Virus record (IMG/VR): IMGVR_UViG_3300013125_000043
Location: 1 to 26,314 of that record
Reading direction: 5' to 3' (one strand)
Origin: a virus
DNA length: 26,314 nucleotides
Of the stretch, positions 1,946 to 18,300 are shown piece by piece. The notes beneath the pieces are model-generated. The model searched no databases. It saw only the letters and a list, made by a program, of their open reading frames with translations, and had not been told where the DNA came from. A program made the translations under genes and the position numbers. Numbering within the stretch: position 1 is the first letter of the stretch; the number at the start of each line of letters is the position of its first letter.

Positions 1946-3538
1946 ATGGCTGGAGAAGTTAAATGGGATGAATCCGTCGGAAAGAAGCCGATGAATGAGG
2001 CTCAGAAATCCCTTATCGCCTACGGATACACAATAGAGGCAAGCATAAAGACATCTTTCAAGAAAGGGACAGGAGCTATCTATGCTCGTCCTCGCCAAAC
2101 ATCTACTTTCGGAAAAACAAGAGCAGTCACAATCTGGAAGAGATGGGGCGGAAAGAATGTAACAGAGAAAGATTACATCAAGCACCAGGCATCTGCTCCT
2201 GGAGAGCCGCCTGCTGTTGACACTGGAAGATTGAGAGCTTCAATCAGTACAAACTGGTCAGGGAGCGGGATGGACAAAGGAAGAGTCGATGCTCAAGCGC
2301 TCCCAGATGATGGAATTGGCGAGCCGAAAGGGGACAAGTTTACAGTTGTTGTCGGAACTAATGTAGATTATGCCTGTTTGGATGCAGAGAGCAATATCTT
2401 AACAAAGAAAGGGTTAAAAAGAATATCGAAGATAGAGGTCGGGGATTTAGTTCTTACTCAAACAGGAGAATATCATCCTGTCTTAAAAGTCTTCTCAAGG
2501 CCAATGAGCGAAGTCACTGGCATGGTGACGCTGAAAGTTAAATACAGAAAGGGACGAATTCATATTTTAAATTGCACAGAAGAGCATAAAATTCTTGTGC
2601 ATAGAGACGGAAGAAACAAGTGGGTAAGGGCCGGAGATTTGCTTCTTTCCGATAAACTTTTCACGAGAATCAAGATTTCTCATCATGCTGGAATAAGTAT
2701 TCATAGGCCTCTACTTTTGAAGAAGTGCTTATATTGCAAGAACATTATCGAGTTCACTACTGATTTCGGAGCAGGATATAAGAATCGAAAATTTTGTTCT
2801 GTCTCTTGTAGAGCGAAATACTGGAGAGAATATGGAAATCCTCATATAGGATTCAAGTATACAGAAGAGTCAAGAAAAAAAATGTCTGAAAAAGCAAGGT
2901 TTCGATTTGAGAATTACCCTGAGTCACATCCTAATAGAATTATGGCAAAAAAGGGATTCTGCTCTTCCACAGAAAAGAAAGTAAAAAAATGGCTCGACGA
3001 AAGAAATATTTTCTATCTCCCTCAATATAAAATTGGAAAGCGATTTGTTGATTTCTATATTCCTGATGAGAATATGATTATTGAATCCAATGGAGATTGC
3101 TGGCACCAGAAGCAAGTCGATGATATTGAGAGAGATAAGGAGCTGCTAAAATGCTTTCCAGGCGGAAAGATTTTACATATTCATTTTTGTGAAAGAGAGG
3201 TTATTCCTCGATTAAATCCGAATCCTCTTCCTGGAGTCTATTATGTTTCGTGCAATCCAGATACCGGAAGCTTTGCTAATCCAGAAATATTCAAGAACGT
3301 CGAAATTCTCGAAATTAAAAAATGGAAATACGAAAGAGGAAAAAATCGCGGAGAGAAAGATGCAAAGCTAAGAAAGGTATTTGATATATGCGTAGATACT
3401 ATACACTCTTACTATGCAAATGGAATTTTGGTTTCTAATTCTGCATTGGAATTCGGAACCGTAAAGATGAAGCCTCGTCCCTTTATGAGGCCTGCTCTTC
3501 TAAAGGCAAGAAAATTTTCTCCGGTATTGAAGTCATAA
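1946..3538 (+). CDS. HK97 gp10-like neck/tail-completion protein interrupted by an in-frame intein
   Basis: One continuous 530-residue frame encodes a 175-residue extein split by a 355-residue intein. The N-extein (residues 1-143) contains APGEPPAVDTGRLRASIS and VVVGTNVDYA. The C-extein (499-530) continues SALEFGTVKMKPRPFMRPAL. Joined, these give the classic HK97 gp10 pattern: TGxLRxSI, VGTNxxYA, xxEFGT, PRPFxRPA. Proteins of this family sit at the head-tail neck or complete the tail. The extein length of 175 residues is close to the usual family size. The start ATG 1946 has GAGGAAG just upstream. The next gene starts 1 nt after the stop and encodes a tail terminator-like protein, the usual neighbour. 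The neck protein should only be functional after protein splicing. Confidence 0.87.
   Translation: MAGEVKWDESVGKKPMNEAQKSLIAYGYTIEASIKTSFKKGTGAIYARPRQTSTFGKTRAVTIWKRWGGKNVTEKDYIKHQASAPGEPPAVDTGRLRASISTNWSGSGMDKGRVDAQALPDDGIGEPKGDKFTVVVGTNVDYACLDAESNILTKKGLKRISKIEVGDLVLTQTGEYHPVLKVFSRPMSEVTGMVTLKVKYRKGRIHILNCTEEHKILVHRDGRNKWVRAGDLLLSDKLFTRIKISHHAGISIHRPLLLKKCLYCKNIIEFTTDFGAGYKNRKFCSVSCRAKYWREYGNPHIGFKYTEESRKKMSEKARFRFENYPESHPNRIMAKKGFCSSTEKKVKKWLDERNIFYLPQYKIGKRFVDFYIPDENMIIESNGDCWHQKQVDDIERDKELLKCFPGGKILHIHFCEREVIPRLNPNPLPGVYYVSCNPDTGSFANPEIFKNVEILEIKKWKYERGKNRGEKDAKLRKVFDICVDTIHSYYANGILVSNSALEFGTVKMKPRPFMRPALLKARKFSPVLKS
2375..3439 (+). mobile_element. Intein with zinc finger, NUMOD3-like and Vsr/EDxHD-type homing endonuclease
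   Basis: The intein covers residues 144-498 of the host frame. It begins with Cys144 (block A CLDAESNILT...GDLVL) and has block B TEEH (211-214). It ends with block F/G (VFDICVDTIHSYYANGILVS, then Asn498) followed by Ser499 as the +1 nucleophile. Between the splicing blocks lie a CxxC...CxxxC zinc finger (Cys261, 264, 284, 288), a NUMOD3-like segment (about 300-318, YTEESRKKMSEKAR), and a nuclease domain with Glu343, Asp369, Glu380, Trp386-His387 and a following Asp pair. That last set matches the PD-(D/E)xK/Vsr-like EDxHD homing endonucleases. The penultimate residue is Ser rather than the usual His. No stop or frameshift is present, so both splicing and homing look intact. The intein boundary call is strong; the nuclease class is recognised by motif. 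Confidence 0.9.
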
Positions 3539-3539
3539 C

Positions 3540-3953
3540 ATGAAAGATTTATTTACAGGTATCTATTCTCTCTTCATAGAAACTTCGAGCGGAAATCATA
3601 ATGCTCTCTATACCGCTCTTGGAGGCAGACTCTTTAATGGGAGAGCTCTCCAGGGGACAACATTTCCTTACGGAGTTTTCTTTCTTGCCGCGGGCGAAGC
3701 AGATTGGGATTTTTCAAATAAATATGAAAATTCAATCGTTCAATTCAGCTTATTTACAAACGAATCCTCTTCATCGAATCTGGAGACGTATTTTGGTTAT
3801 CTTTGCGATTTGTATGACGGCTGTTCTCTTACTTTTACAAATGATACTTTAGTTTTCATGAATAAAAAAAGCTATCGTCTAACTGCTCCCTCAGACGACA
3901 ATAATATCTGGCAATGCGACGTCGATTTCGATGTCATGGTAAAGAAAAAATAG
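3540..3953 (+). CDS. Tail terminator / tail completion protein (DUF3168-like)
   Basis: A 137-residue protein. The N-terminal helix (IYSLFIETS), the LGGRLFNGRALQGTTFPYGV segment, the central beta strand SIVQFSLFT and the late WQCDVDFDV strand resemble the gp17/DUF3168-type tail terminator fold, which forms the ring that ends tail tube growth and joins the head. It starts 1 nt after the neck gene stop, with AGGCAAG-type weak ribosome binding upstream, so translational coupling is likely. In most siphophages the tail tube gene follows directly. Here about 7.1 kb of cargo genes separates the two. The family call rests on pattern and synteny. Confidence 0.72.
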   Translation: MKDLFTGIYSLFIETSSGNHNALYTALGGRLFNGRALQGTTFPYGVFFLAAGEADWDFSNKYENSIVQFSLFTNESSSSNLETYFGYLCDLYDGCSLTFTNDTLVFMNKKSYRLTAPSDDNNIWQCDVDFDVMVKKK

Positions 3954-3973: not shown

Positions 3974-4816
3974 ATGCAACCTATATATTATGCATGGGCA
4001 GGATTAATTGACATTACAAATCTCTGTGGTGGAGATTGCGCCTATTGTACAAGATTCAGAAGGCATATTAGAAAAGACCAGTTCTTTTCTATGACTCTGA
4101 ATGAAATCGATAGAGCTCTTGAATCATATCATAATTGGCCATCTCTTGTAGGAATTATTGGAGGAGAACCTCTCCTTCATCCTCAATTCGAAGAAGTTTG
4201 TCGTCTTTGCTCAAAACATTTCCCTCGTCAAAAACTTCATCTCTTTACTTCTGAAAAGAAAAAATTTATTCAATACAAGCTTCTGATTTCTGAGACTTTC
4301 GGACATATCGCATTCAACGAGCACAACGATTTTCAGAAAACAATCTGTCTCCATCAACCGAATTTGATTTCTTGTGCAGATGTTTGCCCAACAGAAGAGT
4401 ATAAGAAAAAATTGATAGATGAATGTTGGGTTCAATCGAAATGGTGTCCTACGATTTCGAAAAAAGGAGCGTTTTTCTGCGAGATTGCATACGGATGGGA
4501 TTTGATTTTGGATGGTCCTGGAGGGTGGCCAGTAGAATATCAGTGGTGGAAAAAAAATCCGGAAGATTTCCAGGACCAAGTAAAGAAATATTGCGAGAGA
4601 TGCGGGATGATAATCCCGATGAAAAGAGATATAATGAGCATCGAGAAAGAAAAAATCTCTCGAGGAAATTACGAACTATTCAAACAACATAATCTTCCGA
4701 GAATAGAAGAGGAAGATATTGAAATAATAGATGGCAAATTCACAATAGAGGAAATCGAAAGCAACAGGGACGCTTGGCTTCCTAATCAGTATCGCCAAGA
4801 TGTCGGAATGAAATAG
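3974..4816 (+). CDS. Radical SAM protein with C-terminal extra cysteine cluster (SPASM-like)
   Basis: A 280-residue protein. It carries the canonical radical SAM 4Fe-4S motif CxxxCxxC (Cys18, Cys22, Cys25, in LCGGDCAYCTR) and the SAM-binding GGEP motif (63-66, followed by LLHP). A second set of cysteines (151, 158, 169, 207, 210, ending YCERCG) suggests an auxiliary iron-sulfur site of SPASM or twitch type. Enzymes of this family reductively cleave S-adenosylmethionine to a 5'-deoxyadenosyl radical; those with auxiliary clusters often modify peptides or sugars. It is the first cargo gene after the tail terminator and is followed 10 nt later by a GT17 glycosyltransferase, consistent with co-expression. 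The substrate is unknown. It is not an obvious QueE, since no other deazaguanine genes are in view. Confidence 0.85.
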   Translation: MQPIYYAWAGLIDITNLCGGDCAYCTRFRRHIRKDQFFSMTLNEIDRALESYHNWPSLVGIIGGEPLLHPQFEEVCRLCSKHFPRQKLHLFTSEKKKFIQYKLLISETFGHIAFNEHNDFQKTICLHQPNLISCADVCPTEEYKKKLIDECWVQSKWCPTISKKGAFFCEIAYGWDLILDGPGGWPVEYQWWKKNPEDFQDQVKKYCERCGMIIPMKRDIMSIEKEKISRGNYELFKQHNLPRIEEEDIEIIDGKFTIEEIESNRDAWLPNQYRQDVGMK

Positions 4817-4826
4817 GAGAAAAAAG

Positions 4827-5684
4827 ATGAAAGTATACGACTGTTTTCAATTCAATAATGAACTTGAGCTATTAGAGATTAGATTGAATCACCACGATTC
4901 TTTTGTTGATAAATTTGTTCTCTCTGAGTGTCTCTATACTTATAGCGGAGAAGAGAAGAGGCTCTTTTACGATGAGGTAAAGGAAAAATCTCAATTCAAA
5001 AAATTCAAAGATAAAATAATTCATTTCGTTATAGAAGACCCTCCTGACAAAGGAAGAGAGGGCTGGGAATATGAGCATTTCCAGAGAAATATGCTCTATC
5101 AGAATATGATAGATATTTTTTCAGACGACGATTTGATTCTTTATCTTGATTGCGATGAGATGATAAGAGATAAATCAGTCATCGAAAAGGCGTCTGCGAC
5201 TCGAGAAATGGTTAATCTCGATATGAAGCTTTGCTGGTATTACTTCAACTGTATAATTGCTCCAGGAAGTCCATATCAAGGAGATTATAGCATGGAGCCG
5301 TGCTTTGAAGGAAGATGGCACATGGGGAAAATATGTAGAAAGGAACACATTGAGAGATTCAAATCAAGACTCTATTCAATTAGAGAATTCAATCTCTGGT
5401 CTCCTAAAAACATGTATACAATTTTCGATTCCGGATGGCACTTTTCAAATCTCGGAACTTCGAAGAGAATCCTCGAGAAGCTGAATTCATTTTCTCATAA
5501 AGATGAACTGAATTCAAGATATTCTCTCACTGATGAGTTGATAAAGGAGAGAAGAGATAATCTCAGGGACCCTCTCGGAAGAAATGTTTCTTTTGTCGCT
5601 ACAGAACTCGATGTCCCTGGGTTTATATTGAAAAACATAGATAAATACAAGGATTATATTCTCGATGTACCAGATAGTGAATGA
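4827..5684 (+). CDS. Glycosyltransferase family 17-like protein
   Basis: A 285-residue protein. The start MKVYDCFQFNNELELLEIRL is the signature opening of GT17 proteins (related to the beta-1,4-mannosyl-glycoprotein GlcNAc transferase). It is followed by VDKFVLSE, WEYEHFQRN and the metal/nucleotide-sugar site DCDE (108-111). The conserved late GWHFS segment (203-207) is also present. It is cytosolic with no membrane segment. Such enzymes transfer a sugar from a nucleotide-sugar donor; acceptor and donor are not predictable here. AGGAG at 4816-4820 precedes the ATG. Its end overlaps the next gene by 20 nt, so the pair is translationally coupled. Bacterial and phage GT17 members usually sit in surface-glycan or virion-modification clusters, which agrees with the neighbours. 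Confidence 0.85.
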   Translation: MKVYDCFQFNNELELLEIRLNHHDSFVDKFVLSECLYTYSGEEKRLFYDEVKEKSQFKKFKDKIIHFVIEDPPDKGREGWEYEHFQRNMLYQNMIDIFSDDDLILYLDCDEMIRDKSVIEKASATREMVNLDMKLCWYYFNCIIAPGSPYQGDYSMEPCFEGRWHMGKICRKEHIERFKSRLYSIREFNLWSPKNMYTIFDSGWHFSNLGTSKRILEKLNSFSHKDELNSRYSLTDELIKERRDNLRDPLGRNVSFVATELDVPGFILKNIDKYKDYILDVPDSE

Positions 5685-6480
5685 CTTATCATGGCAAGCA
5701 GAAAATATTCAATGGATTGAATTTGAACTCTCGAATAATTGTCAATATGCAGATTATCATTCTTGGTGCCCTCGACACTACGATAAAAGAGAATTGACTT
5801 TTCTTCCTGCATCTATTGTCGTGAAGACGATTCATTTCTTCAAGAAATTTTCGTTTTCGGGAATGATTTATCTGAGTGGATATTCGGAACCATTGATAGA
5901 CCCGAGATTCTTGCTTCTTGTTCAATTCATAAAAGAAAATCTTCCGAAATGTTGCATTAGTATGTTTTCTAATGGACTCGCAGCAGATGAAAATTTATTG
6001 TCTGACGCTCTTAATTGCGGAGTCGATATTATTAGGCTTTCAATATATAGCAAGGAAGAAGGAGAGCGGCTCTCGAGAATTTCTCAAAAAATTAATTCTC
6101 CGAGAATTATCCTTCATCCGAGATATGATAAGTCGATATCGAATGAAGGAAGCGGAGAAGGAATCGATTGTAGATTGAATGTATATGATGAGCCTCAGAA
6201 AGGAATAGAGGAGCCCTGTTTCATCCCCTCTATGTATTACTTTGTCAGAAATAATGGCGATGTAAATATGTGCTTCTGGGATTGGAAATATACGCAAGTT
6301 TTTGGGAATCTTTTTCACGATTCGGTTGAAAAGACTCTTATGAATTCTCGAAGGCTTGAAATAAATGATTTTCTTGTAAATAATCGAAGGAATCTCGTCG
6401 ATGTTTGCTCTCGGTGCTCGCTTCCTGCTCAGAGATGCATCTCTGAATATCAGAGTCGATTAAAACTAAAGAAAGGATAG
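5665..6480 (+). CDS. Radical SAM/SPASM-like protein with non-canonical cluster motif
   Basis: A 271-residue protein organised like a radical SAM/SPASM enzyme. Residues 17-36 hold WIEFELSNNC..., where the canonical CxxxCxxC is replaced by Cys26-x8-Cys35-Pro. The GGEP-equivalent is GYSEP (72-76, then LIDPRF). The C-terminal SPASM domain looks complete: Cys185, GDVNMC (Cys203), FGN, then CSRC (248, 251) and Cys258. So the auxiliary-cluster domain is kept while the SAM-cluster site is altered. It may be a divergent active family or a carrier/partner subunit for the neighbouring canonical enzyme. The start at 5665 lies 20 nt inside the GT17 gene with only a weak GGAT-type ribosome site; a GTG at 5677 is an alternative. 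Confidence 0.75.
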   Translation: MYQIVNDLSWQAENIQWIEFELSNNCQYADYHSWCPRHYDKRELTFLPASIVVKTIHFFKKFSFSGMIYLSGYSEPLIDPRFLLLVQFIKENLPKCCISMFSNGLAADENLLSDALNCGVDIIRLSIYSKEEGERLSRISQKINSPRIILHPRYDKSISNEGSGEGIDCRLNVYDEPQKGIEEPCFIPSMYYFVRNNGDVNMCFWDWKYTQVFGNLFHDSVEKTLMNSRRLEINDFLVNNRRNLVDVCSRCSLPAQRCISEYQSRLKLKKG

Positions 6481-6482
6481 TT

Positions 6483-6938
6483 ATGAGCGTTAAACTCAAT
6501 CTCGGATGCGGATACAGAAAGATTGAAGGATATATCAATATTGATATAAGGCCTGAAGTCGGACCTGATATGGTTCTCGATATCTCTGAAGGATTGCCAT
6601 ACGACAATGAGATTGACGAAATAAGGGCGGTTGATTTCTTAGAGCATGTTCCCATAGGGAGGACCATATCAACCATTGAATCTATATGGAAAGCGCTTAA
6701 GCATCATGGTAAATTTTATAGTGTCACTCCTTCTACAGATGGAAGAGGAGCTTTCCAGGACCCGACTCATGTCTCATTCTGGAATAAGAATTCATTCTGG
6801 TATTATATGGATGATGAGCACAGAAATCTCTACGGAATAAAAGCGAAGTTTATTGGAGAATTGAGAGATGTTATAACGGACCCGGCAAATAAAATTCATC
6901 ACGTCGAGGCAATTCTTTACGCAGTGAAAGGAAAGTAA
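6483..6938 (+). CDS. Small class I SAM-dependent methyltransferase
   Basis: A 151-residue protein. It opens with LNLGCG (5-10), the glycine-rich motif I of Rossmann-type methyltransferases, then a strand ending in Asp21 (motif II, binding the ribose of SAM), AVDFLEH (49-55, motif IV region), and a helix and strand ending KFYSVTPS. At 151 residues it is shorter than most members (200 or more) and has little room for a substrate-recognition domain, as is common for methyltransferases in phage and capsule glycosylation clusters. AAAGGA precedes the ATG. It lies between a radical SAM gene and a glycosyltransferase gene with gaps of 1-2 nt. A sugar, glycan or protein methylation role is inferred from context only. 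Confidence 0.82.
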   Translation: MSVKLNLGCGYRKIEGYINIDIRPEVGPDMVLDISEGLPYDNEIDEIRAVDFLEHVPIGRTISTIESIWKALKHHGKFYSVTPSTDGRGAFQDPTHVSFWNKNSFWYYMDDEHRNLYGIKAKFIGELRDVITDPANKIHHVEAILYAVKGK

Positions 6939-6939
6939 A

Positions 6940-7668
6940 ATGAAAACAGTTGTTCTTAGTATGTGGTATAATGAGGAAGAGCTTGCTCCCTTCTTTCTAA
7001 ATCATTACAAGTGGGCAGATGAGATTCACATTATCATCGATACTGATTCGAATGATAGGTGTGAGGAGATTGCCTGTAAAGCAGAAAATGTGCAAATCTC
7101 TCACTTCTCTCCACCCGACGGAATGGATGACGAGAAGAAGCAGAAGATAATAAACGGAATTGCTTCAATCCGAAGTGAAGATTGGATAATCTTGGCGGAT
7201 GCAGATGAATTCATTCTTTTCGATAATAAATTTCTCGAAAATGTATCGCAAGATATTATCGTTTCGAAATACTGTCAGCCGTATCGTCATTTTCTTGATT
7301 CTGATTTGGACCCGGAAAATCCTTCTGTCGAGCAAAGGAGACATGGAAATGAGATTGTGGACCTTGTGTGGTATAAACCTTCAGTTGTCAGGTCTCGAAT
7401 CAATCCTCAGTGGCTTCCAGGATTTCATTCTCTTACATTTGCCACAAGTGAAATGAAGCAGGCAAGATACTATCCTGAGATACAGAAGGCGATGCACTGG
7501 ATTATGGCCGATAAAGACCTTGCAATTGAAAGAAGAATAAATGGAAGAAAAAACCGTCAGAGCAAAAACAATCTCGAGAAAGGCTTCTCACTTCATAACC
7601 ACTACATCACAGAAGAAGAAATTCGGGTAGAGTGCGAATTTCATAAACATGACCCAATTCTTTTTTGA
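6940..7668 (+). CDS. GT-A fold glycosyltransferase (family 2/92-like)
   Basis: A 242-residue protein. The beginning MKTVVLSMWYNEEELAPFFL is a typical opening of glycosyltransferase 2/92-like proteins, where NE binds near the nucleotide. DWIILADADEF (81-91) supplies the DxD metal-binding site (DADE, 87-90). Further matches are a tryptophan-containing acceptor region (QWLPGFHSL) and a C-terminal SLHNHYI. It has no membrane segment. It sits 1 nt after the methyltransferase stop. It is likely to add a sugar to the same acceptor as its cluster neighbours, but acceptor identity is not visible in the sequence. Confidence 0.75.
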   Translation: MKTVVLSMWYNEEELAPFFLNHYKWADEIHIIIDTDSNDRCEEIACKAENVQISHFSPPDGMDDEKKQKIINGIASIRSEDWIILADADEFILFDNKFLENVSQDIIVSKYCQPYRHFLDSDLDPENPSVEQRRHGNEIVDLVWYKPSVVRSRINPQWLPGFHSLTFATSEMKQARYYPEIQKAMHWIMADKDLAIERRINGRKNRQSKNNLEKGFSLHNHYITEEEIRVECEFHKHDPILF

Positions 7669-7679
7669 AAGGAAGTATA

Positions 7680-8453
7680 ATGAAAGTCTCGATAATAATC
7701 CCGTTCATTAATGCCTTTGAGTATACAAAAAATTGTCTCTTTTCAATAAAGGAATGCACTCCTGAAATCGATTACGAGATAATTCTTGTCGATAATGGCT
7801 CGAACGAATCGAATGATGATTTCTATTCATATGCAAAAGGATGTGCAACTCTTATCAGAAATGAAGAGAACGAAGGATTTCCAAAAGCAATAAATCAAGG
7901 AATCTTTGCATCGAAAGGGGACTTTATCTGCATTCTCAATAATGATACAGTCGTTTCTCCTGGATGGATGGAGCATCTTCTTTTTCATCTTGAAAAAGAT
8001 TATATCGACATTGTCGGACCTTGCACAAATTCAATAAGCGGAACTCAACAGGTCTATTTCAAGGCTTATTACAACAAAGAGGATTTTTATTCGAAGGCGA
8101 ATCTTTTCTACGAAGAAAGAAAAGGAAAATATGAGCCACTCCATCGACTTGTCGGGTTCTGTCTTGTCATGAAGAGAAAAGTTATTGATGCAGTTGGGTG
8201 CTTTGATGAAATTTTTACTCCTGGAAATTTCGAAGACGATGACTTCTGCATGAGAGCGATAGATAGAGGATTTCACTGTGTAGTTGCGCAGGATGTTTTC
8301 ATTCATCACTTTGGCTCAGTTACCCATCAGCAACTCTCTCTCGATTATGCAAATCTTCTTGATATGAATAAAAAATTATTCGACAGGAATTGGCCCCAAG
8401 GAAGATATCTTGACATGATTGTAAAAAACAGAATGATTCCGAAATGGGAATAG
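7680..8453 (+). CDS. Glycosyltransferase family 2 protein
   Basis: A 257-residue protein if started at ATG 7680, which has GAAAGGAAG directly upstream (7667-7675). A TTG start at 7665 would be in frame but would place the ribosome site inside the gene. Classic GT2 features in order: VSIIIPFINAFEYTKNCLFS at the N-terminus, EIILVDNGS, NEGFPKAINQGI, then the metal site NNDT (87-90) and LVGFCLVMKRKV. The acceptor-side base region follows in FEDDDFCMRA, then VAQDVFIHHFGSVT. This resembles rhamnosyl- or other GT2 enzymes of surface polysaccharide clusters. It is soluble. The following DHH gene begins 9 nt after the stop behind AGGAG. Confidence 0.9.
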   Translation: MKVSIIIPFINAFEYTKNCLFSIKECTPEIDYEIILVDNGSNESNDDFYSYAKGCATLIRNEENEGFPKAINQGIFASKGDFICILNNDTVVSPGWMEHLLFHLEKDYIDIVGPCTNSISGTQQVYFKAYYNKEDFYSKANLFYEERKGKYEPLHRLVGFCLVMKRKVIDAVGCFDEIFTPGNFEDDDFCMRAIDRGFHCVVAQDVFIHHFGSVTHQQLSLDYANLLDMNKKLFDRNWPQGRYLDMIVKNRMIPKWE

Positions 8454-8462
8454 GAGAAAAAG

Positions 8463-9323
8463 ATGAGAGTCTTAGTTATTCACCACAATGACCTCGACGG
8501 GAGATGCTCCGCTGCAATAGTCAGATATGCAAAGAAAGATGAAGGAGCAGAAATCGATTTTCTTGAAATGGATTACAAAGATAACTTCGATGTCGATGCG
8601 ATAAAAAAGCAGTATTATGATGAGGCATTCGTTGTCGATTTCTCTCTTCACTTTGAAAAGATGAGGAAGTTGAAAGAAAAAGTAGGGAAACTTGTCTGGA
8701 TTGACCATCATGCGGCAGCGAAGGATTTCATCTATCAAGACCTTCCAGGAATGAGAGATTTCTCAGAAAAAGGAATGGCAGCATGCGAATTGACATGGAA
8801 ATATCTCTTCAATATAGGAATGCCATTCTCAGTTGAACTGATAGGGGATTACGATAAATGGGCTCTCAGACATGAACCACAATGCTTCAGATTTTATGAA
8901 GGAATGAAGCTCAAAGATAATTCGCCGCAATCAAGAATCTGGATTGAATTGTTCGAGAGAGATGGAGCAGCTCTCGATATTGCACTCGAAGGAAAGATTG
9001 CGATGATTTATAGAGATTCATATTGCGAAGAAATGTGTAAGGCTTTCGGATACGAGACTGAGATTTCAGGCCATTCTGCTTTCGCATGCAATATTTCGAA
9101 ATTTGGTTCAAAGGGATTCGGAAAAAGAATGAGAGAATACGATATCTGCATTTCATATTCCCACGATGGAGCAAAATACACAGTCTCTTTGTATACTGAA
9201 AATGACAAGATTGATGTCTCTCAAATTTGTAAGAAGCTCGGAGGAGGGGGGCACAAGGGAGCTGCAGGATTCGTATCCTTCAAGCTTCCTTTTCAGAAGA
9301 AGGAGAAAAAGAATGATTCCTGA
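8463..9323 (+). CDS. DHH/DHHA1 family phosphoesterase (NrnB/oligoribonuclease-like)
   Basis: A 286-residue protein with all family motifs. These are motif I HHNDLDG (7-13), motif II with Asp59 in VVDFS, motif III DHH (81-83), motif IV Asp129 in GDYDKW, and the C-terminal DHHA1 substrate motif GGGGHKGAAGF (259-269). The length suits the single-substrate NrnB-type group. Members use two metal ions to cleave short RNA, pAp or cyclic (di)nucleotides. All metal ligands are present, so it should be active. It lies in the cargo block between a GT2 gene and two tiny genes. Possible roles are recycling of nanoRNA during infection or destruction of a nucleotide signal used by host defence; the sequence does not decide. 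AGGAG precedes the ATG. Confidence 0.88.
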   Translation: MRVLVIHHNDLDGRCSAAIVRYAKKDEGAEIDFLEMDYKDNFDVDAIKKQYYDEAFVVDFSLHFEKMRKLKEKVGKLVWIDHHAAAKDFIYQDLPGMRDFSEKGMAACELTWKYLFNIGMPFSVELIGDYDKWALRHEPQCFRFYEGMKLKDNSPQSRIWIELFERDGAALDIALEGKIAMIYRDSYCEEMCKAFGYETEISGHSAFACNISKFGSKGFGKRMREYDICISYSHDGAKYTVSLYTENDKIDVSQICKKLGGGGHKGAAGFVSFKLPFQKKEKKNDS

Positions 9324-9492
9324 GAGATTAAAAAAAATACTCGAATTCTGGATTGAAAAGAAAAAGGTAGGAAGCATCACAGTGAATTTCTTTCGAGGAG
9401 GAATTTCATCTGTGATGCTGAAGGAGACGCAGAAAATATCTCCTGATTTTCCCTATGAAAGGAAAGGTCGCGATGAAGCTGAAGGTAATTAG
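9313..9492 (+). CDS. Small DUF2292/YezD-like protein
   Basis: A 59-residue protein starting at ATG 9313, with AGGAG at 9301-9305. It overlaps the end of the DHH gene by 11 nt. The amphipathic helix (RLKKILEFWIEKKK) is followed by GSITVNFFRGGISSVMLKET. That matches the layout of the small DUF2292 (YezD) family: helix, then GSVTI, a G-x-I/V turn, then V-x-x-x-E-T/K. In cellular bacteria such proteins are of unknown function and often sit near sulfur-assimilation genes. The C-terminal 20 residues are polar. It overlaps the next small gene by 20 nt. The family match is by eye and tentative. Confidence 0.5.
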   Translation: MIPERLKKILEFWIEKKKVGSITVNFFRGGISSVMLKETQKISPDFPYERKGRDEAEGN

Positions 9493-9673
9493 TGACGGAA
9501 CTCTCAACGGAACAAAAGTTGTAGACCTTGAGACGAATGAAAATCTCAATGGAGTGTATGAGGTCACCTGGCAGCACGGAGTTGGCGAACTTCCAAAGGC
9601 GACTATTCGGTTATATAATATTCCTGTTGAAATAGAATGTGGAGATGTGAAAAAGTATGAGCTTAGAGGTTAG
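9473..9673 (+). CDS. Small conserved phage-type protein of unknown function
   Basis: A 66-residue protein from ATG 9473, behind GGAAAGG (9461-9467). The in-frame ATG at 9455 is less well placed. The pattern is a strand (KLKVISDGTLNGTKVVD), then NLNGVYEVTWQHGVGELPKA, then TIRLYNIPVEIECGD. This all-beta layout, with a VTW...A(T/E)(I/L)xLxNVPVE-type core, recurs in small proteins from phage structural regions, but I know no function for it. It overlaps the preceding gene by 20 nt and the following glycosyltransferase-like gene by 17 nt, so all are probably one translational unit. Confidence 0.55.
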   Translation: MKLKVISDGTLNGTKVVDLETNENLNGVYEVTWQHGVGELPKATIRLYNIPVEIECGDVKKYELRG

Positions 9674-10361
9674 CAACTACAGAATCGGAATCGGTATCCC
9701 ACTCTCATTCCCATTCATTCCTTCATCTTTTTTCGATAGTTTTGTGAAAATGGAGAAGGGAGAATTCATCTATCTGAGGTCAGCTAATGGGCCTCTTGAG
9801 GGATTGAGGAATAGCATAGTTGAGATGGCAATGGAGGCAAATTGCTCTCATCTGTTGATGTGTGACACTGATATGACATATCATATCAACACAATTCCTT
9901 CTCTTCTCTCAAGAAGAATTCCTGTCGTAGGGGCTCTCTGCTATAGAAGATATCCTCCCTTCGACCCTTTGATGTATAGAGGAGAGGTGAATAATTACTT
10001 CTCGATAACTGAATGGACTCAAGGAGATTTAGTTGAGGTCGATGCTACAGGAACAGGATGTCTTCTTTGCGACATGGAAGTTTACTATAAAATGAAAAGC
10101 CCTTGGTTTGAATTTCCTCCGAATCCTGATAAGAGAGCCAAAGGAGTTGTCGGAGAAGATATCTGGTTCTGCACAAAACTCAAGAAAATGGGATATAAGA
10201 TATATGTTGATACATCTGTTCCTTCAGGCCATCTCTCAACTCTTGAGGTGGGCCATGGGACATATCTTCTCTACAAGGCGATGAAAGAAAAACAGGAAAT
10301 AAAATCTGCACTGAAAGAGATGGATGAAAATAAATGTTTAACTTCGGAGTATATTGAGTAA
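9657..10361 (+). CDS. Phage glycosyltransferase-like protein, GT-A fold (tandem paralogue 1)
   Basis: A 234-residue protein. The order of features is RIGIGIPLSFPFIPSSFF at the N-terminus, LEGLRNSIVEMAMEANCSHL, then the metal site DTD (70-72, MCDTDMTY). After that come GALCYRRYPPFDPLMYRG, VEVDATGTGCLLCDMEV, GEDIWFC (166-172) and a C-terminal VDTSVPSGHLS. The DTD, GED and final His192 match the GT-A active-site layout. It aligns throughout with the next gene product (shared GIG(I/L)PLS, DTD, RR(Y/W)xPFDPxxYRG, VDATGTGC, GEDI, VDTS, GTYLLYK), so the two arose by duplication. Start ATG 9657 with GGAG at 9641-9644. Confidence 0.75.
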   Translation: MSLEVSNYRIGIGIPLSFPFIPSSFFDSFVKMEKGEFIYLRSANGPLEGLRNSIVEMAMEANCSHLLMCDTDMTYHINTIPSLLSRRIPVVGALCYRRYPPFDPLMYRGEVNNYFSITEWTQGDLVEVDATGTGCLLCDMEVYYKMKSPWFEFPPNPDKRAKGVVGEDIWFCTKLKKMGYKIYVDTSVPSGHLSTLEVGHGTYLLYKAMKEKQEIKSALKEMDENKCLTSEYIE

Positions 10362-11035
10362 TGGAGACGATAAAAATATCAAATTTCAAGCTCGGGATTG
10401 GGCTTCCTCTTAGTGATACGAATGTTCCTATGCAATTCTTTACAACATTTCTTGTGATGGAAAAACCTCATCCTTCGAATATGTATCTTCCTACATTTCC
10501 TGTTACAAATCGAAGCATTGATGCTGTGAGAAATGACCTGGTTCAGCAGGCAATAAATGAAAATTGTACTCATCTTGCAATGCTCGATACAGACCAGATT
10601 TATCCTATGGATACTTTGACGAAGCTTCTGAGTCATAATGTCGATGTCTGCGGGTCCGTTGTTCATCGAAGATGGTCTCCTTTCGACCCTGTTCTTTATA
10701 GAGGAGTTCCTGGATACTATACACATGTAAGTGACGAAGAGATGTTTAGTGGAAAATTGATAGAAGTTGATGCTACAGGAACAGGGTGCATTTTGTTCTC
10801 GATGGAATGCTTCAAAAAAGTCGAGCCTCCTTGGTTCAAGATTGATTTAACATCGACAGGAAAAATTGTAGGAGAAGATATCCATTTCTGTTATGAGCTT
10901 AGAAAAAGGGGGGTTAGAATCTTTGTTGATACATCGATTGAAATAGAACATATGACGACATATATCGTAAATCGAGGGACATATCTTCTCTATAAAAATC
11001 TTCATCCTTACGAGTGGAGACCCGGAAAAGATTAA
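10361..11035 (+). CDS. Phage glycosyltransferase-like protein, GT-A fold (tandem paralogue 2)
   Basis: A 224-residue protein whose ATG overlaps the stop of paralogue 1 (TAATG), indicating translational coupling. It holds the same landmarks: KLGIGLPLSDTNVPMQFF, IDAVRNDLVQQAINENCTHL, the metal site DTD (76-78, LDTDQIY), VVHRRWSPFDPVLYRG, VEVDATGTGCILFSMEC, GEDIHFC (171-177), VDTSIEIEH (His197). It is the last gene of the cargo block; 85 nt of AT-rich spacer separate it from the tail tube gene. The two paralogues could form a heterodimer or act in sequence on one acceptor; this is inference. Confidence 0.75.
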   Translation: METIKISNFKLGIGLPLSDTNVPMQFFTTFLVMEKPHPSNMYLPTFPVTNRSIDAVRNDLVQQAINENCTHLAMLDTDQIYPMDTLTKLLSHNVDVCGSVVHRRWSPFDPVLYRGVPGYYTHVSDEEMFSGKLIEVDATGTGCILFSMECFKKVEPPWFKIDLTSTGKIVGEDIHFCYELRKRGVRIFVDTSIEIEHMTTYIVNRGTYLLYKNLHPYEWRPGKD

Positions 11036-11120: not shown

Positions 11121-11600
11121 ATGTCACTAAGGATAGGAAGAGATTGTAAAGTAACAATTGGGAGCCCGATAACTACTGCTGGAACGAACGCAACAGTGAG
11201 TGCGCAAGGAACATGGAAGATTTCGGGCATTACGGCTGACCAGATGGAAATCACCTCTTTCACCGACAACTGGAAGACTTATTTATTCGGAACGAAAGAT
11301 GGTGGAACCATCACATTTTCTGGATTCTTCGACCCAGAAGATACTTCCGGGCAGGTCAAGCTCATGTCTCTGAACCTCGATGCAACTTCTCTTACCACTC
11401 TGAAGTTGTTTGTTGATTCAGTCTCATACTGGATGCCGTGCCATACCACTGGATGGTTTGCCTCTCCTTCTCTGACGAGCAATCAGAACACAAAGCCTTC
11501 TTGCGTATTTATCACCTCATGGAACATCAGCGCAGACAAGGCACAGGTTGTGGCGATTGACTTCACTGCGAAGGTCAGCGGCAATATGTCATATTATTGA
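11121..11600 (+). CDS. Major tail tube protein
   Basis: A 159-residue protein. The typical siphovirus tail tube landmarks are present: an N-terminal RIGRDCKVTIGSPITT strand pair, WKISGITADQMEITSFTDNW, YLFGTKDGGTITFSGFFDPE, and a C-terminal AIDFTAKVSGNMSYY. The phrase in which a helix-preceding ITSF or DVTSF is followed by a GxKDGGxITF(S/T)G strand is a recognised mark of the tail tube family related to lambda gpV and HK97 tail tube proteins. It polymerises into the tail tube around the tape measure. A strong GGAGG ribosome site (11107-11111) suits a major virion protein. The chaperone genes follow, as in lambda. Confidence 0.85.
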   Translation: MSLRIGRDCKVTIGSPITTAGTNATVSAQGTWKISGITADQMEITSFTDNWKTYLFGTKDGGTITFSGFFDPEDTSGQVKLMSLNLDATSLTTLKLFVDSVSYWMPCHTTGWFASPSLTSNQNTKPSCVFITSWNISADKAQVVAIDFTAKVSGNMSYY

Positions 11601-11630: not shown

Positions 11631-12017
11631 ATGACAGTTCTCGACCTTGAGAATCTAAACAAGGGGACGTGGTTTCCCTACGAGAGCGGAAGTGAAATTT
11701 GTCTTCGGACATGTGCAGCTGAAGACCTCCGGGATATCGTAAAGAAGTCATCGGAGAAGAAAGCGAGATTCACCGATAGAGCTCGAATTGAATGGGAAGA
11801 GCCTGATGAGGATAAGCGGTTCGAGCTTCTTTATGATTTCTGTATTGTGGATTGGAAAGGCTTTTTCGATAAAGATGAAAAGCCTATCCCTTGCACAAAG
11901 GAAATGAAGCTCCTGCTCATGGGAAAGTCTGTTGAGTTCGCAAGGAAAGTAGGAGAACTCCTGAAACAGATGTCAGAGACAGAAGAAGTCTACAAGGCAG
12001 ACCAGGAAAAAAACTAA
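11631..12017 (+). CDS. Tail assembly chaperone, gpG-like
   Basis: A 128-residue protein ending at TAA 12015-12017. Its position between tail tube and tape measure, its acidic helical character (AAEDLRDIVKKSSEKKARFT and so on) and the frameshift signal at its very end identify it as the functional equivalent of lambda gpG. It binds the tape measure protein during tail assembly and is absent from the finished tail. AAGGAG (11616-11621) lies before the ATG at 11631. Most ribosomes should stop at the TAA. A fraction should slip back one base on A AAA AAC (12008-12014) and continue as the gpGT fusion. Confidence 0.85.
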   Translation: MTVLDLENLNKGTWFPYESGSEICLRTCAAEDLRDIVKKSSEKKARFTDRARIEWEEPDEDKRFELLYDFCIVDWKGFFDKDEKPIPCTKEMKLLLMGKSVEFARKVGELLKQMSETEEVYKADQEKN

Positions 12018-12068: not shown

Positions 12069-12382
12069 GTAGAAAAATGAAGTCGGCCTCAGGAAAGAGA
12101 ACTCCTTGTGATGATTGCTTCCCTGAGATTCTTCCCGACAACAAAGATGCAGTCTTCATCTATCTCAAGGGCGGAAATCAAGTAATTGTTGCCGGGATGG
12201 GTGATATTATTGGGCTAAATTATCTCGCATTTCGAGAGATGATGGATGCCTATAAAATTCAAAATCAAAATGATTGTTGGGAGAAAGTTCAAATAATCTT
12301 CAGAGAAATAAGGGAGCTGGCGGAAGAAAGGAAGGAAAGCGAAAAAGATTCTCCGTCGAGTGTGAGTACTTTCAATGGCTGA
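12014..12382 (+). CDS. gpT-like part of the tail chaperone, made as a gpG-T fusion by -1 frameshift
   Basis: After slippage, C12014 is re-read and translation continues LKEFARRLSDPNRPSCELCR to the TGA at 12382. That adds 122 residues to the 128 of gpG, for a fusion of 250 residues. The T domain starts with a CxxC...CxxC pair (CELC and CDDC, 12 residues apart), a likely zinc knuckle. It is followed by FPEILPDNKDAVFIYLK and a helix (LNYLAFREMMDAYKI), a common design of gpT-type domains. An independent start at ATG 12077 would cut off the first CxxC and has no ribosome site, so I reject it. The stop overlaps the tape measure start by 8 nt. The fusion is thought to recruit tail tube subunits to the tape measure. 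Confidence 0.85.
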   Translation, partial: LKEFARRLSDPNRPSCELCRKMKSASGKRTPCDDCFPEILPDNKDAVFIYLKGGNQVIVAGMGDIIGLNYLAFREMMDAYKIQNQNDCWEKVQIIFREIRELAEERKESEKDSPSSVSTFNG

Positions 12383-15300
12383 AGGTCAGATTGGAAAAAT
12401 ATTTGTTGAACTTTCTCTTGATGATGCGAAATATCTTACCGGTCTTAGCAAGGCGAAACAGCAAGCCGAGGAGGCAAGCCGCACTCTAAAGTCAAAACTC
12501 TCCTCTCTTGGATTCGATACAAATCAAACAGAAAGAGACCTTTCTGTTATTAGTGGTCAATTCAAATCTCTCTCTCAATCAATTTCAGAATCCTGCGCTA
12601 AAAATAAAAATATTTTCGCATCCATGTTCACAACAATTAAATCTGGATGGCTCGAAATTACTGCTGCTATTCTTGGATTCAGAGAAGCATGGTCGATGGT
12701 AGAGGATTCTGCGAAAAGAGAGAGAACAGCAAATACATTTGCCCAGCTTGCCCAAAGATTTAAAATCGATAGAGAGCAGTATATAGAGCAAGTCAAGACC
12801 CTCTCAGAGTACACAATGGACGAGTCAGATATTATGGAAATGACGACTCGTGCTATGTCGAGAGGTTTCGACCCAAAGAATGTTCCTCAGATTGCCCAGC
12901 TCGGGAAGCTCATTTCTCGGACTTATTCTTCTTCTTTTGCTGAAGGAATGGAGCAAGCAATGGAGGCAATCTCCACAGGAAGAATGCGTCCTCTGCGAGG
13001 GATAGGTCTCAGAATGTCTGAGATTTCTGACACAAAAGCATTCGAAAAATATGCTCTTGCCGCTGGATACGTGAAAGAATATGCAAAGGCACTGAATGAG
13101 ACAGAGCAACAGCAGGCGAGATTGAATGCTGTCATGGAGGAAGCTGCTCCGAAAATCGATAGAATGAAGAATGTTCAAGCGGACACTATGACTCTGATTG
13201 GGCAATGGAAAACTGGATTTCAAGAAGTTAAAGAGAGTGTGGGAGACGTCTTTTCTACTGTATTCAAGGCTGTTGCTCTGATAGGTGAATCTCTCCTTTG
13301 GATTATTGGGACCATTGTAGATAAATTGAATCAGCTTGACCGCTGGATGTCAGAAAAAATTTCGAAGTGGAAAGTTCCAGAATCAGTTCAGATGCCAGGA
13401 TTTCTCGGAGGAGGAAAAATTCCTATTCCTGGAGCTGAATCGTTAAATAAAACATTCAGCTCTGCCGGAGAAGAATTAGTCAAGAATGCCGATGAGAATT
13501 CTAAGAGCTCCACTAAGTTCGTCAATGGTATCGAGTCAATGATAAGAGCTAATATGGAGCTCTTTAGCCAGAAGACTGAAGTTTCTTCTTTCTTCGAAAA
13601 AGAAGGAGAGGACGCAAGAAGAACCGCAGGCGATATAGACGAGTTAAAAAATAGTCTTGAGAGAATGAACTCCCAGCTCCAGCTCACAATTGCTCTCGGA
13701 GCAGACCCGATGATGGGTGAGATGGAGCGCCAGATGACGCAGATAAAAGCGAAGTACGACGATATGCGTCTCGGCCTCGATAAAGATAAAGGGAAATATG
13801 AAGTCGCAGGGCTCGGGGGTGAGTGGAAATCGACATATCAAAAAACATATGCAGCGGAAGAGGCAGAAAAATCTGTTAGTTATCAGAAGCAATGGGAGTC
13901 TGTATACGATAATCTCTCTCAAATGGCAGAGAATTTTCAAAGAGAAGTTGATACAACTTCAATGAAATCTCTCGGAAAAGAAATTGAAGGAATAAACAAG
14001 CAGTATGATGACGTCCTCGGAAAATTAATAAAAATAGACGATGCTCTCATTGCAACTGACCCCTCCCTCAAACAGCTTTTCGATGATACATATGCCTGGG
14101 CGAACCAGATGAAGGAAGTCAAAACTCAATTCGCTCTTGACGAGACGAGCAAGAAATTGAGAGAGCAGCTCGAGGATGCCACCGTAAGTGCAGCTCACTA
14201 CAGCGATACAGAGAAATCAATTATTCAAATTAATCGCCAGTATAGAGATTGGCGAGAAAATATTCTCTCAGTTAAAGGAGCAAGCAAAGAGTGGAGAGAT
14301 TCTGCCATTGCTGACCTCGATGCATGGAGAGCGAAATCAATAGAGGCTGCTGATACTTTCTCAGATAGAGTGATGGGTGCTCTTTCAAATATGGAAAGAA
14401 CCTATGGAAAGAAGTCGAACTATATCGGTGAATTTATTGAACAAAGAGACATGTGGAAAGAGAATGTTAATTTGATTCAAGAAGGAATTGGGAGATTCAA
14501 GGAAAATAGAGAGCAAGGAAAAGGAATATTTGAAAGTCTGAATGCTGTTTTCGATAAGAAAAAAAGCCCAGAACAGATATTTAAAGAATCCTCAAATACG
14601 AGCCTGAAGGCATCAGATAAGTTTTCCAGGGCTGTTGATAAATTTGATGGAACAGTATCAGGAACATCTTCTCAAGGAGGGCAGGCAAGTACAGGGTTAG
14701 CATCCTTAATTAATCAATACATACCAGGAGCTGGCCAGCTCTTTAGTTCTACACCGGGGACTACACAGGCTCCGGTAACTACGCCTACTTCTGGAACTGC
14801 ACAGACTCCTGCATTTTTTAGTAAAATATTTGGGATGGGAACTGGTCCTGGTGGCACCAATACAGGTATCATGGGAATGCTTGGAAAAGTTGGCGGGGCT
14901 TTTTCCAATTTTGGAAATTTTAGTTCTACTGATATTATGGGGACATTGAAAAATGCATACGGTGCGTATGGTGCTTTAACTGCTGCCCCTTCACTTCCTG
15001 GGGCCACTACTGCTGTTGGTGGGGCTGGTGGTGTTTTAAGTGAAGGTGGTGGGTTAGCTGGAATGCAGACTTCTGCTGCACAGGGAACAGCAGGAGGAAC
15101 TGCTGCAGGGGGTTCTTCTGCCCTTGGAGTTGTTGGCGGAGCTGCCGGAGTTGCGGGAGCAGCTTACGGTGGATATGAAATGGGTAAAGCTAAAGGCACT
15201 GGGGCTGGAATGGGTATGGGTGCTGCTCAAGGTGCCATGGCAGGGACGATGATATTACCAGGAATAGGCACAGCAATCGGTGCAGTTGTCGGTGCTATTG

Positions 15301-18300
15301 GAGGTGCTATTGGAGGTTCTGCTCATAAATCAAAAGCACAACTCGAAGCAGAAGCGTACGCAAAAGAGTACGTAAAGGTTCTTAAAAAACTGCAGTCAGA
15401 AGAAGGGTTTATGGTTCCTTTCGGGTATGACAAGGAAATACCTTGGAAGGTAATGAAAGAATGGAAATCTGCATTTAAAGACTATGTTAAAGGTGCATCA
15501 GAAATGGCAAAAGAAATAAATAATGCTATGAAAAATGCTGTTTCTTCTGCATTCAAAGCTGAAAATACTGCATCAAGTGTAGAAACATTTGAACAAAATC
15601 TTGCTCAAGGTCTTATTGATACAATAGGAAATGAATTTAATAAAGCTACAACATATACTTTTAAGAAAATATTAGCCCCCATAGAACAGATATTTTATGA
15701 CCTTTTCTTTTTCCTGTGGAAAGGTTGGGAAAAAACAATTAATGATATTACTAAGGATACATCCCCACTGCGTTCTTGGATGAATAATTTATATACTGAT
15801 TTCTTAGAACTATGGATGAAAATTTTTGGGGCAATGTTTAAGTTTGCAGAAAAAAGTGGAGATAAAGTAGGTAAAACATTATCTAAAATTGTAAATACAA
15901 TTTTTGGAACTTCTTTTGATGGAAATAAAATAGGAAAACAATTAGCCCTTGGATTAGCAGCAGCAATTGCTTATATAGGTGGTTTATTAATATCTACTTT
16001 AGTTACTCCTATTGGAAATATATTAATCGGTGTTGTTTCTTTTATTGGTAAAGCCATAACTCCATTTTTGGAAAAAATAAATACATTTACGATTAAAATA
16101 CAGAAGTCTTTTAATGATGCTTCCGTTGACTGGATAAAAGACATGGAAGCTGCTGGGATAAAATTAGCAGATGATATGTCTAAAAAAATGATAGACGGAA
16201 TGAAGAATGCTTGGGGTTCATTACAGTCTACTATGAAAGAAGCCCTTTCTGCTGGATTCGGTGCATATTCTATTTCTGGTGGCTGGATGGAATTTCAACG
16301 TAAAATGAAGGAAGGTATTTATAAGTTTGTAGTAGAAGGTATGATGACGGCTTTAACTGCTGGTGGCATAATCTTCGCAGCTATTGGTCCACTTATTGGT
16401 GAATATGTAAAATTATTTGTTGATGGGATAAGAGGAAATTTTGATATAAAGGGATTCAGCAAATTAAATAGTTTATTGATTTCTAATATTGGAATTGCAT
16501 TTGATGGTTTTAAGGATGTATTTGCAGACCTTTGGACTGAAACTGATATTTTAAGAAGAAGTTTTTTCAACGATGAGTATAATCCACAAACTTTAACTAT
16601 TGGTACTGGTGGAGTTTCTACTGGTGGCACTGGTAGTGGAGATGTTGAAGAAGTCCAAGAAAAAATTTGGAAGTGGCCTTTATGGACAAAACTTACTGAT
16701 ATTTTTGGTAGGTATGATTGGCCATTTTTAAAGAAATTATCAAACTTTTTTGATTCCTGGAATTTTCCTTTATTAACAGTTATACAGAAGATTTTAGAAA
16801 AATATGATTTCCCTTTACTCACCATGTTGATGAAGTTTATGAATACCAGAAAGTTCCCTATATTAACTGAAATGACAAAATTTTTAGACAGGGATGTGTC
16901 ATTTTTAGATGATATTGGTGAAGCATTAAGTGGTTTGCGTAGTGCTGGTGAATTACTTAAAGATATTTTTAGTGGTAACTTTCCGTTTTTAAAATGGCTT
17001 GCTACACAGATGGGTGGATTTCAAGGTGGATTTATATTTAAGACTCGTGGAAAAACTGAAACTAATACTGAAGCTTGGAAACCTTTTAAATGGTTAAAAT
17101 TACTGTTTACTGGAAAAATATTGGAAGGAATTAAAATAACTATTGAAGAATGGTGGGATAACAGCAAACTGAAAAAAATATGGGATGATTTAAAAGTAGG
17201 TTGGGAAGAATTTAAAGGGAAAATAGATGCATGGTGGCAGGATTCTTGGATAAAAGCAATAGTAGACTGGTTAGGTGGTTCCCCAGATTTAATGTTAAAA
17301 AAATTAAAAGATTGGTGGGAAGGTTCTTGGATACGTAGACTAATTAACTGGTTTAAAACGGCTGGTGAGGCATTAGGATTAGCTATTGATACTTGGTGGA
17401 AAGGTTCAGTTTTTAAATTATTTTGGGATTTATTAAGTGGATTAGTAGTAGGAATTTTTACTTGGATTGATAGTTGGTGGGGGCAATCAATTTTTAAGGG
17501 ATGGTGGGATTTATTCAAAGGATTGCTTACTGGTTCTGGAACTGCATTTGATGATTGGTGGAAACAGTCGGCTATAAAAAATTGGTGGGATTTCTTCAAA
17601 GGATTGCTTACTGGTTCTGGAACTGCATTTGAGGATTGGTGGACTAATTCAAGAATAAAATTTTGGTGGGATAGTTTTTCTAATTTAATAGGAGGAGCTT
17701 GGTTAATTTTACAAACATGGTGGGAAGGTTCAAATATAAAGAAATGGTGGGATAGTTTTTCTAATTTAATAGGAGGAGCTTGGTTAATTTTACAAACATG
17801 GTGGGAAGGTTCAAATATAAAGAAATGGTGGGATGGATTTGCAGCTGGGATAAAAGGAGCTTGGTTAATTTTACAAACATGGTGGGAAGGTTCAAATATA
17901 AAGAAATGGTGGGATGGATTTGCAGCTGGGATAAAAGGAGCTTGGACTAACTTACAAACATGGTGGGAAGGTTCAAATATAAAGAAATGGTGGGATGGTT
18001 TTGGAACATTAGTTAATAAAGCATGGACTGACTTACAAACATGGTGGGAAGGTTCAAATATAAAGAAATGGTGGGATAATTTTGGGTCATTTCTTGAAAG
18101 AGTATTTGGAGAATGGTGGAATAAAAGTGCTTTGAAAAGAATATACGAGTTTTTAACTGGGGATTATAGTACAACATATGATCCTAAAAGTTATAAATCA
18201 GGAACAGATTACGTTCCGTATACTGGACTTTTTGGATTACATAAGGGCGAAGCAGTAATACCTGAATGGTTAAATAGTGCAGTTGGTGGGGCAAAAAATG

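Follow-up and report, generated by a model that had tools for sequence, protein, structure and literature searches.

A putative virion-glycosylation module beside the tail tube gene of uncultured tailed phages

Organization of the cassette

The window analyzed here is a single virus record of 26,314 bases (IMG/VR IMGVR_UViG_3300013125_000043). Reading 5′ to 3′, the end of the major capsid protein (MCP) gene, a neck protein interrupted by an intein and the probable tail terminator (TT) precede a cassette of eleven genes at 3974-11035, and the tail tube protein (TTP), an assembly chaperone, the tape measure protein and Dit follow it. All eleven genes are intact. As the initial annotation had described, they are on the + strand with small gaps or overlaps, and database searches support their family assignments. 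Two of them, GTA1 and GTA2, are glycosyltransferases (GTs) of the GT-A type, and it is their family (GTA), and its association with the tail tube gene, that is the principal subject here. The cassette, its borders and the chaperone gene on its 3′ side are as follows, numbers of the form L024 denoting loci from other sequences and ORF an open reading frame.

3540-3953, + strand: probable tail terminator (TT), the 5′ border of the cassette, placed by its position between neck protein and TTP
3974-4816, + strand: radical SAM protein, variable cargo (PF04055, 5.6e-9)
4827-5684, + strand: GT17-family glycosyltransferase, variable cargo (PF04724, 2.6e-20; homologue in L024)
5665-6480, + strand: radical SAM/SPASM protein (PF13186, 4.1e-8; relatives in the same interval of other loci)
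6483-6938, + strand: class I SAM methyltransferase (phrog_6636, 5.6e-7, its sole family match)
6940-7668, + strand: GT2_4 glycosyltransferase, GT92-like (PF13704, 1.7e-9)
7665-8453, + strand: GT2 glycosyltransferase, chondroitin-synthase-like (PF00535, 5.6e-27; solved chondroitin synthase, 7.9e-11)
8463-9323, + strand: DHH-family phosphoesterase (PF01368, 2.3e-8; phrog_4771, 5.6e-36)
9313-9492, + strand: small ORF of 59 aa (conserved motif KVGxxxVNxFxGGIS)
9473-9673, + strand: small ORF of 66 aa (no homologue in the fetched loci)
9657-10361, + strand: GTA1, GT-A glycosyltransferase with DTD and GED motifs (phrog_1574, motifs, tree)
10361-11035, + strand: GTA2, core GT-A glycosyltransferase adjoining TTP (phrog_1574, model, folds, synteny, co-variation)
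11121-11600, + strand: tail tube protein (TTP), the proposed acceptor (phrog_158, model, fold search)
11631-12017, + strand: tail assembly chaperone (TAC), on the 3′ flank, used as the control for co-variation (phrog_313)

The TT family comprises 35 aligned homologues; their profile matches are weak, and it is the position of the gene that identifies it. The AlphaFold model of the TTP (mean pLDDT 76.5) confirms its fold, with tail tubes as the structural matches, among them those of monocin, a gene transfer agent and lambda gpV. Ten cassette proteins were scanned for membrane helices and none clear was seen. Promoter signals in the interval are at the level of chance, and so no internal transcription unit is proposed.

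Conservation of the interval

How widespread is this organization? Scans with the two GT-A paralogues and with a TTP alignment provided 74 viral loci, whose TTPs form 47 non-redundant clusters at 90% identity. Gene maps of these loci reveal a recurring order TT-[cargo]-GTA-TTP-TAC-tape measure, in which the cargo is variable. A GTA gene lies inside the TT-TTP interval in 44 of the 47 TTP clusters and directly 5′ of the TTP gene in 37 of them; the spacing between the two genes runs from a 44-base overlap up to a few hundred bases, and is larger where an ORF intervenes. A glycosyltransferase of some kind is found in the interval in at least 45 clusters, which exceeds chance, the 45th being L073, where a GT2_4/GT92 protein occupies it. 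The other two clusters without a GTA in the interval, L074 and L075, have the most distant TTPs. The TT-[cargo]-GTA-TTP arrangement is a conserved module, with the GTA at the TTP end of the interval, and the prevalence of glycosyltransferases there bears out the late glycan-modification module that the initial annotation had proposed. In some loci there are two tandem TTP genes, both of them 3′ of the GTA (L008/L068, L009/L070, L066, L069 and L071).

A scan of 84,980 prokaryote genomes with a GTA query returned six loci, five of which have the TT-...-GTA-TTP order. The five genomes containing that order have GTA matches at seven places in total, and the family is therefore apparently a phage one rather than a housekeeping one. 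Host bins of the contigs that carry the module include Methanoperedens, Lutibacter and Deltaproteobacteria, as well as others. In the open-licence literature searched we met no description of an arrangement like this one, linked to the tail tube gene, kept across diverse phages and with radical SAM cargo.

The GT-A enzyme and its link to the tail tube protein

GTA1 and GTA2 are 45% identical and both match phrog_1574. The AlphaFold model of GTA2 (mean pLDDT 94.1) has as its closest solved fold A197 of the archaeal virus STIV (Sulfolobus turreted icosahedral virus; 7.7e-10, 16% identity). Next in order come LH3, matched in its GT domain, mimivirus R699, COLGALT1 and Mnn9, and then POMGNT1 and GalNAc-transferases. 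The matches to LH3/PLOD3, COLGALT1 and R699 have E values of about 1e-8 at 11-15% identity. Most of the enzymes matched act on proteins. The DTD and GED motifs are present in both copies of the window and in nearly all the tail-linked relatives; as modelled, the GTA is an enzyme of GT-A fold, with a metal-binding DxD and a catalytic acid region.

The adjacency of GTA and TTP is accompanied by co-variation of their sequences. Across 30 non-redundant loci having all five genes compared, the pairwise distances between GTA proteins are correlated with those between TTPs at r = 0.64 (Mantel p = 0.001; 0.56-0.72 on 70% jackknife), rising to 0.80 when corrected for noise. By comparison the TTP distances correlate with those of its other neighbours at only 0.17 (TAC), 0.19 (TAC2) and 0.11 (TT), while GTA and TT give r = -0.02. 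The measurement reliabilities of TAC (0.76) and GTA (0.74) are about equal, so that noise alone is insufficient to account for the gap between the correlations.

The TTPs are of two sorts, with or without a loop at residues 107-127. This loop is unstructured in the model and is 37% Ser plus Thr, compared with about 19-21% in the rest of the protein; at position 109 each of the 35 sequences with a residue has T or S. GTA proteins with an N-terminal fusion accompany loop-bearing TTPs in 26 of 26 cases and none of the 11 loopless ones (Fisher 1.6e-7, kinship being ignored).

A core gene and exchangeable cargo

The initial annotation had regarded the eleven genes as a single coordinated system. 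That description is not upheld by the relatives, where the core is the GT-A gene, joined in some lineages by the 59-aa ORF, and the remainder comes and goes. Seven clusters have one gene between TT and TTP. In three of them (L047, L064 and L081) it is the GTA alone, giving the minimal form TT-GTA-TTP, and in L027, L063, L082 and L083 it is a GTA fused to another GT domain or to a methyltransferase domain; since in these clusters the interval holds a single GTA-type gene, the core is one enzyme. Homologues of the 59-aa ORF are conserved and placed between GTA and TTP in relatives, and it is therefore part of the module in some lineages.

Genes between terminator and GTA vary among relatives, as expected of the cargo hotspot that had been suggested. 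There are 74 other ORFs in the intervals, of which 27 match Methyltransf_11, making the methyltransferase the commonest type of cargo. Nine are GT2, seven radical SAM and three TOD1/MUCI70 genes; HNH/NUMOD3 endonucleases occur twice, and GT17 and sulfotransferase once each. The GT, methyltransferase and radical SAM genes thus stay within this interval on comparison of related phages, and are not scattered. Some are physically joined to the core enzyme, by methyltransferase-GTA fusion in L082 and L083 and by fusion of another GT domain in L005, L025, L045 and L051, and the existence of such fused proteins links the activities.

The cassette of the window is among the longest found. GTA1 groups with the clade accompanying loopless TTPs (tree support 97/83 and 99/94), while GTA2 is nearest to loop-associated sequences, with support that is not firm; these two placements suggest that the cassette arose by merger of two kinds of module. 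Its GT2 protein has homologues at 43-50% identity in L006-L009. No match was seen in any fetched relative for four of the proteins: the first radical SAM protein, for which a single-protein scan of viral contigs also returned no relative, the GT2_4 protein, the 66-aa ORF and the DHH phosphoesterase. The last is confined to the window among the loci seen, and is possibly unrelated cargo.

Both of the radical SAM/SPASM-type proteins noted in the initial annotation are present, although no SPASM profile is detectable in the first. This protein (3974-4816) has the CX3CX2C motif (C18, C22 and C25), together with C-terminal Cys pairs. The SPASM protein at 5665-6480 lacks the canonical CX3CX2C [4Fe-4S] motif, having instead CQYADYHSWC (CX8C). 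In L087 (from Bacteroidota), the nearest homologue found among bacteria, the motif is again CX8C, with CNLASAHKLC, while more distant homologues are canonical. The two proteins share CxxAxxHxxC, possibly an unusual variant for cluster binding. The sole significant solved relative of the SPASM protein is BtrN (1.5e-9, over almost the full length), an aminocyclitol dehydrogenase (PMC10991966). The likeness to BtrN, which acts in butirosin biosynthesis as a radical SAM twitch dehydrogenase, suggests carbohydrate or cyclitol chemistry and is in keeping with sugar tailoring; the proteins differ in that the one in the window has CX8C where CX3CX2C is canonical.

Other features of the window

Immediately 5′ of the terminator gene is the following.

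1946-3538, + strand: neck or tail-completion protein, interrupted by an intein (phrog_5, Hint_2/Intein_splicing, DUF559)

The intein has a zinc-finger-like segment as well as an endonuclease domain of the DUF559/Vsr-like type; the homologues of the neck protein in L007-L009 are intein-free alleles. On the other side of the cassette the tape measure protein (12375-18560, 2061 aa) has tandem Trp-rich repeats (WWEGSNIKKWWD...) in its C-terminal part.

Relation to known systems

Distant relatives of the GTA are found directly behind the MCP gene or after a few small genes, and not at the TTP gene. They occur in phage Baka, three Manatee Spring phages, Microcystis phage Mel-JY34, L010, L012, L015 and L018; no structural neighbour of the GTA was recognized in L013, L014, L016, L022, L023 and L084. 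The family tends to adjoin either TTP or MCP, the two virion proteins present in greatest abundance. One Lutibacter-binned locus (L080) has two GTAs, of which that at 4424-5080 belongs to the capsid-associated clade and lies 5′ of connector genes, and that at 9992-10660 belongs to the tail clade and precedes the TTP. The contig of L016, in which no tail tube gene was recognized, has a cluster of many GT2 genes, together with a methyltransferase and two GTAs.

A close parallel among the capsid-linked cases is that of the cluster J mycobacteriophages (Omega and Baka), where 8-10 genes interrupt the capsid-connector stretch, with a role that was left open in 2013 (Pope et al. 2013, PMC3706429). 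A methyltransferase-GT fusion has been reported in that cassette (PMC3706429). Baka gp11 is a GTA homologue (hhalign 99%, 1.2e-18) that adjoins the MCP and is followed by a kinase, a methyltransferase and more GTs. Judged by sequence the module of the window is of the same type, a homologous GTA with GT and methyltransferase genes beside a major virion gene, with a different proposed acceptor gene. The cluster J site is at the capsid rather than the tail tube, its annotated genes include no radical SAM/SPASM protein, and it has GHD in place of GED.

Papers that cite the work describe mycobacteriophages (Che8, Corndog and Myrna) whose own GTs glycosylate the capsid and the tail tube, and the glycans are reported at C-termini (Freeman 2023, via PMC12363180, PMC12619734 and PMC11256854). 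As far as those accounts go, the likeness to the module lies in phage-encoded GTs, several acting jointly, and an abundant virion protein as the acceptor, which for the module is proposed. The hosts are different, however, and radical SAM enzymes go unmentioned in the same accounts; moreover the three GT genes of Che8 are remote from its structural genes, close to the end of the genome. We considered Che8 gp110 as a homologue of the GTA, but profile similarity is absent, and so in this comparison homology to a proven virion GT was not found. A C-terminal acceptor of the mycobacteriophage kind was also considered for the TTPs, and is taken up below.

In STIV the coat protein, which is its major capsid protein, bears glycans that A197 is suspected of adding (PMC10551542). 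A197 is a minimal GT-A fold and the best PDB match of the GTA, but the identity is low, the virus is unrelated, and the donor and acceptor of A197 are not proven. LH3/PLOD3, COLGALT1 and mimivirus R699 resemble the GTA as protein glycosyltransferases of GT-A type, but these collagen-type enzymes act on hydroxylysine, and no lysyl hydroxylase domain is seen in the window. In Synechococcus phage S-SCSM2R (L100), close to the baseplate genes, a GTA relative has a 2OG-Fe(II) oxygenase as its neighbour, recalling the pairing of hydroxylase and glycosyltransferase in LH3.

Discussion

In our reading the interval probably serves in glycosylation of the virion, as a module linked to the gene of the tail tube. 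The initial annotation had left the target of the glycan between tail and host envelope; of these, the computed evidence favours the phage's own virion, and the tail tube first, and points away from the envelope. In the mechanism that we propose the GTA would use a host nucleotide-sugar to place an initial sugar on a surface Ser/Thr or other side chain of the TTP, the disordered Ser/Thr-rich loop being the likely site in those TTPs that have it. GT2, GT2_4, GT17 and GTA1 would lengthen the glycan, and the methyltransferase and the BtrN-like radical SAM enzyme might cap it, or oxidize or epimerize its sugars. In favour of the module as a whole are the fixed place of the GTA before the TTP and its co-variation with it, the pairing of N-terminal fusions with loop-bearing TTPs, folds near those of protein glycosyltransferases, distant relatives beside the MCP, the methyltransferase-GTA and GT-GTA fusions, the lack of a clear membrane helix and the mycobacteriophage precedent. 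Exchange of cargo between phages would then generate a phage-specific glycan coat on the tail. The benefit is a matter of speculation, but a varied tail surface chemistry could serve in evading recognition or binding by outside factors, in stability or in adsorption.

A number of points weigh against this interpretation. The TTP seed alignment was drawn from GTA-bearing loci, which may have biased the scan. The correlation of GTA with TTP might partly reflect joint recombination of adjacent genes, and TAC, the control on the other side of the TTP, evolves faster, which might have widened the gap. The association of loop and fusion is not phylogenetically independent, and the GTA is also present with loopless TTPs, so that the loop cannot be the sole acceptor. 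The TTPs stop soon after their last strand, with no long C-terminal tail, and an acceptor at the C-terminus as in the mycobacteriophages is therefore a misfit. The activity of the SPASM protein is uncertain because the canonical cluster motif is absent. Finally, the window is one metagenomic contig of 26 kb; comparison of its TTP with isolate phages gave no match, and no isolate of the lineage was found.

The same enzymes might instead glycosylate another virion protein, such as the terminator, a fibre or the capsid, the GTA being placed before the TTP merely for late expression. The capsid-linked GTAs are in keeping with this, as are the mucin-like (SPSxSPS)n tracts on terminator or tail proteins of L008, L009, L069 and L005, which are plausible O-glycan acceptors. 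Yet the GTA distances track those of the TTP and not the terminator, and most module loci have no SPS tracts; an SPS-repeat terminator was accordingly rejected as a general acceptor, the repeats being found in a minority of loci. We therefore think another virion acceptor unlikely. The SPS-repeat proteins are encoded at 148-3717 in L069, 6380-7078 in L008, 812-1324 in L009, 17953-20643 in L005 and 11574-12857 in L039; in that of L069, which has 1189 aa, an SPS linker connects a terminator domain to a long region at the N-terminus.

Modification of the host envelope, in which the GTs would alter surface polysaccharide and so exclude other phages or change receptors, is improbable. Phage GT2 enzymes of the GtrB kind do act in this way, GT2 and methyltransferase cargo is compatible with it, and the variability of the cargo resembles that of surface-antigen genes. 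Against this, clear membrane helices are lacking in the cassette proteins, neither a flippase nor a polyprenyl-linked enzyme was detected, and the genes lie within a late tail operon whose core GT co-varies with the TTP. O-antigen modification of the GtrB type, with a membrane-anchored GT and GtrA, was not encountered, gtrA being absent among the families found.

Could the interval simply tolerate insertion, with homing endonucleases sustaining recombination and the genes being unrelated morons? Homing-type endonucleases are indeed found inside the interval in L008 and L009, with an HNH gene elsewhere in L080, the content is highly variable, and the DHH protein and some others are in the window alone. 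But GT, methyltransferase and radical SAM genes are strongly over-represented in that content, and the GTA is near-universal, fixed in position, intact in its DxD and GED, and kept alone in the minimal loci, leaving a neutral hotspot very improbable. Glycosylation of hydroxymethylated bases in phage DNA hardly deserves credence: GTA1 has a weak match (3.7e-4) to phrog_842, a beta-glucosyl-HMC-alpha-glucosyltransferase, but a thymidylate-synthase-type hydroxymethylase (PF00303) was found in 0 of 10 relatives' contigs (32-76 kb and maybe partial, the window being 26 kb), the folds matched belong for the most part to enzymes whose substrates are proteins or glycans, and the genes lie in a tail operon.

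Returning to the tail tube as acceptor, the module is new with respect to the mycobacteriophage case in being linked to the tail tube, kept across diverse phages, and accompanied by radical SAM cargo. It is possible, though we put this only tentatively, that a dedicated tail-tube GT co-evolves with the TTP and works with an exchangeable tailoring set that includes radical SAM remodelling of sugars on the virion, in widespread and diverse tailed phages; this would be the first combinatorial tail-glycan coat with radical sugar chemistry.

If this is true, glycosylation of tail proteins would be a built-in trait of a broad group of uncultured phages, extending beyond the mycobacteriophages. The GTA of ~220 aa and the TTP of ~160 aa would form a compact pair of enzyme and substrate, and the cargo would constitute a natural library of GT, methyltransferase and radical SAM combinations for modified glycoproteins. 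A rule that the GT stands beside the gene of its acceptor, whether TTP or MCP, would allow acceptors to be predicted from genome order, and the module would provide a way to ask why phages coat their tails with sugar.

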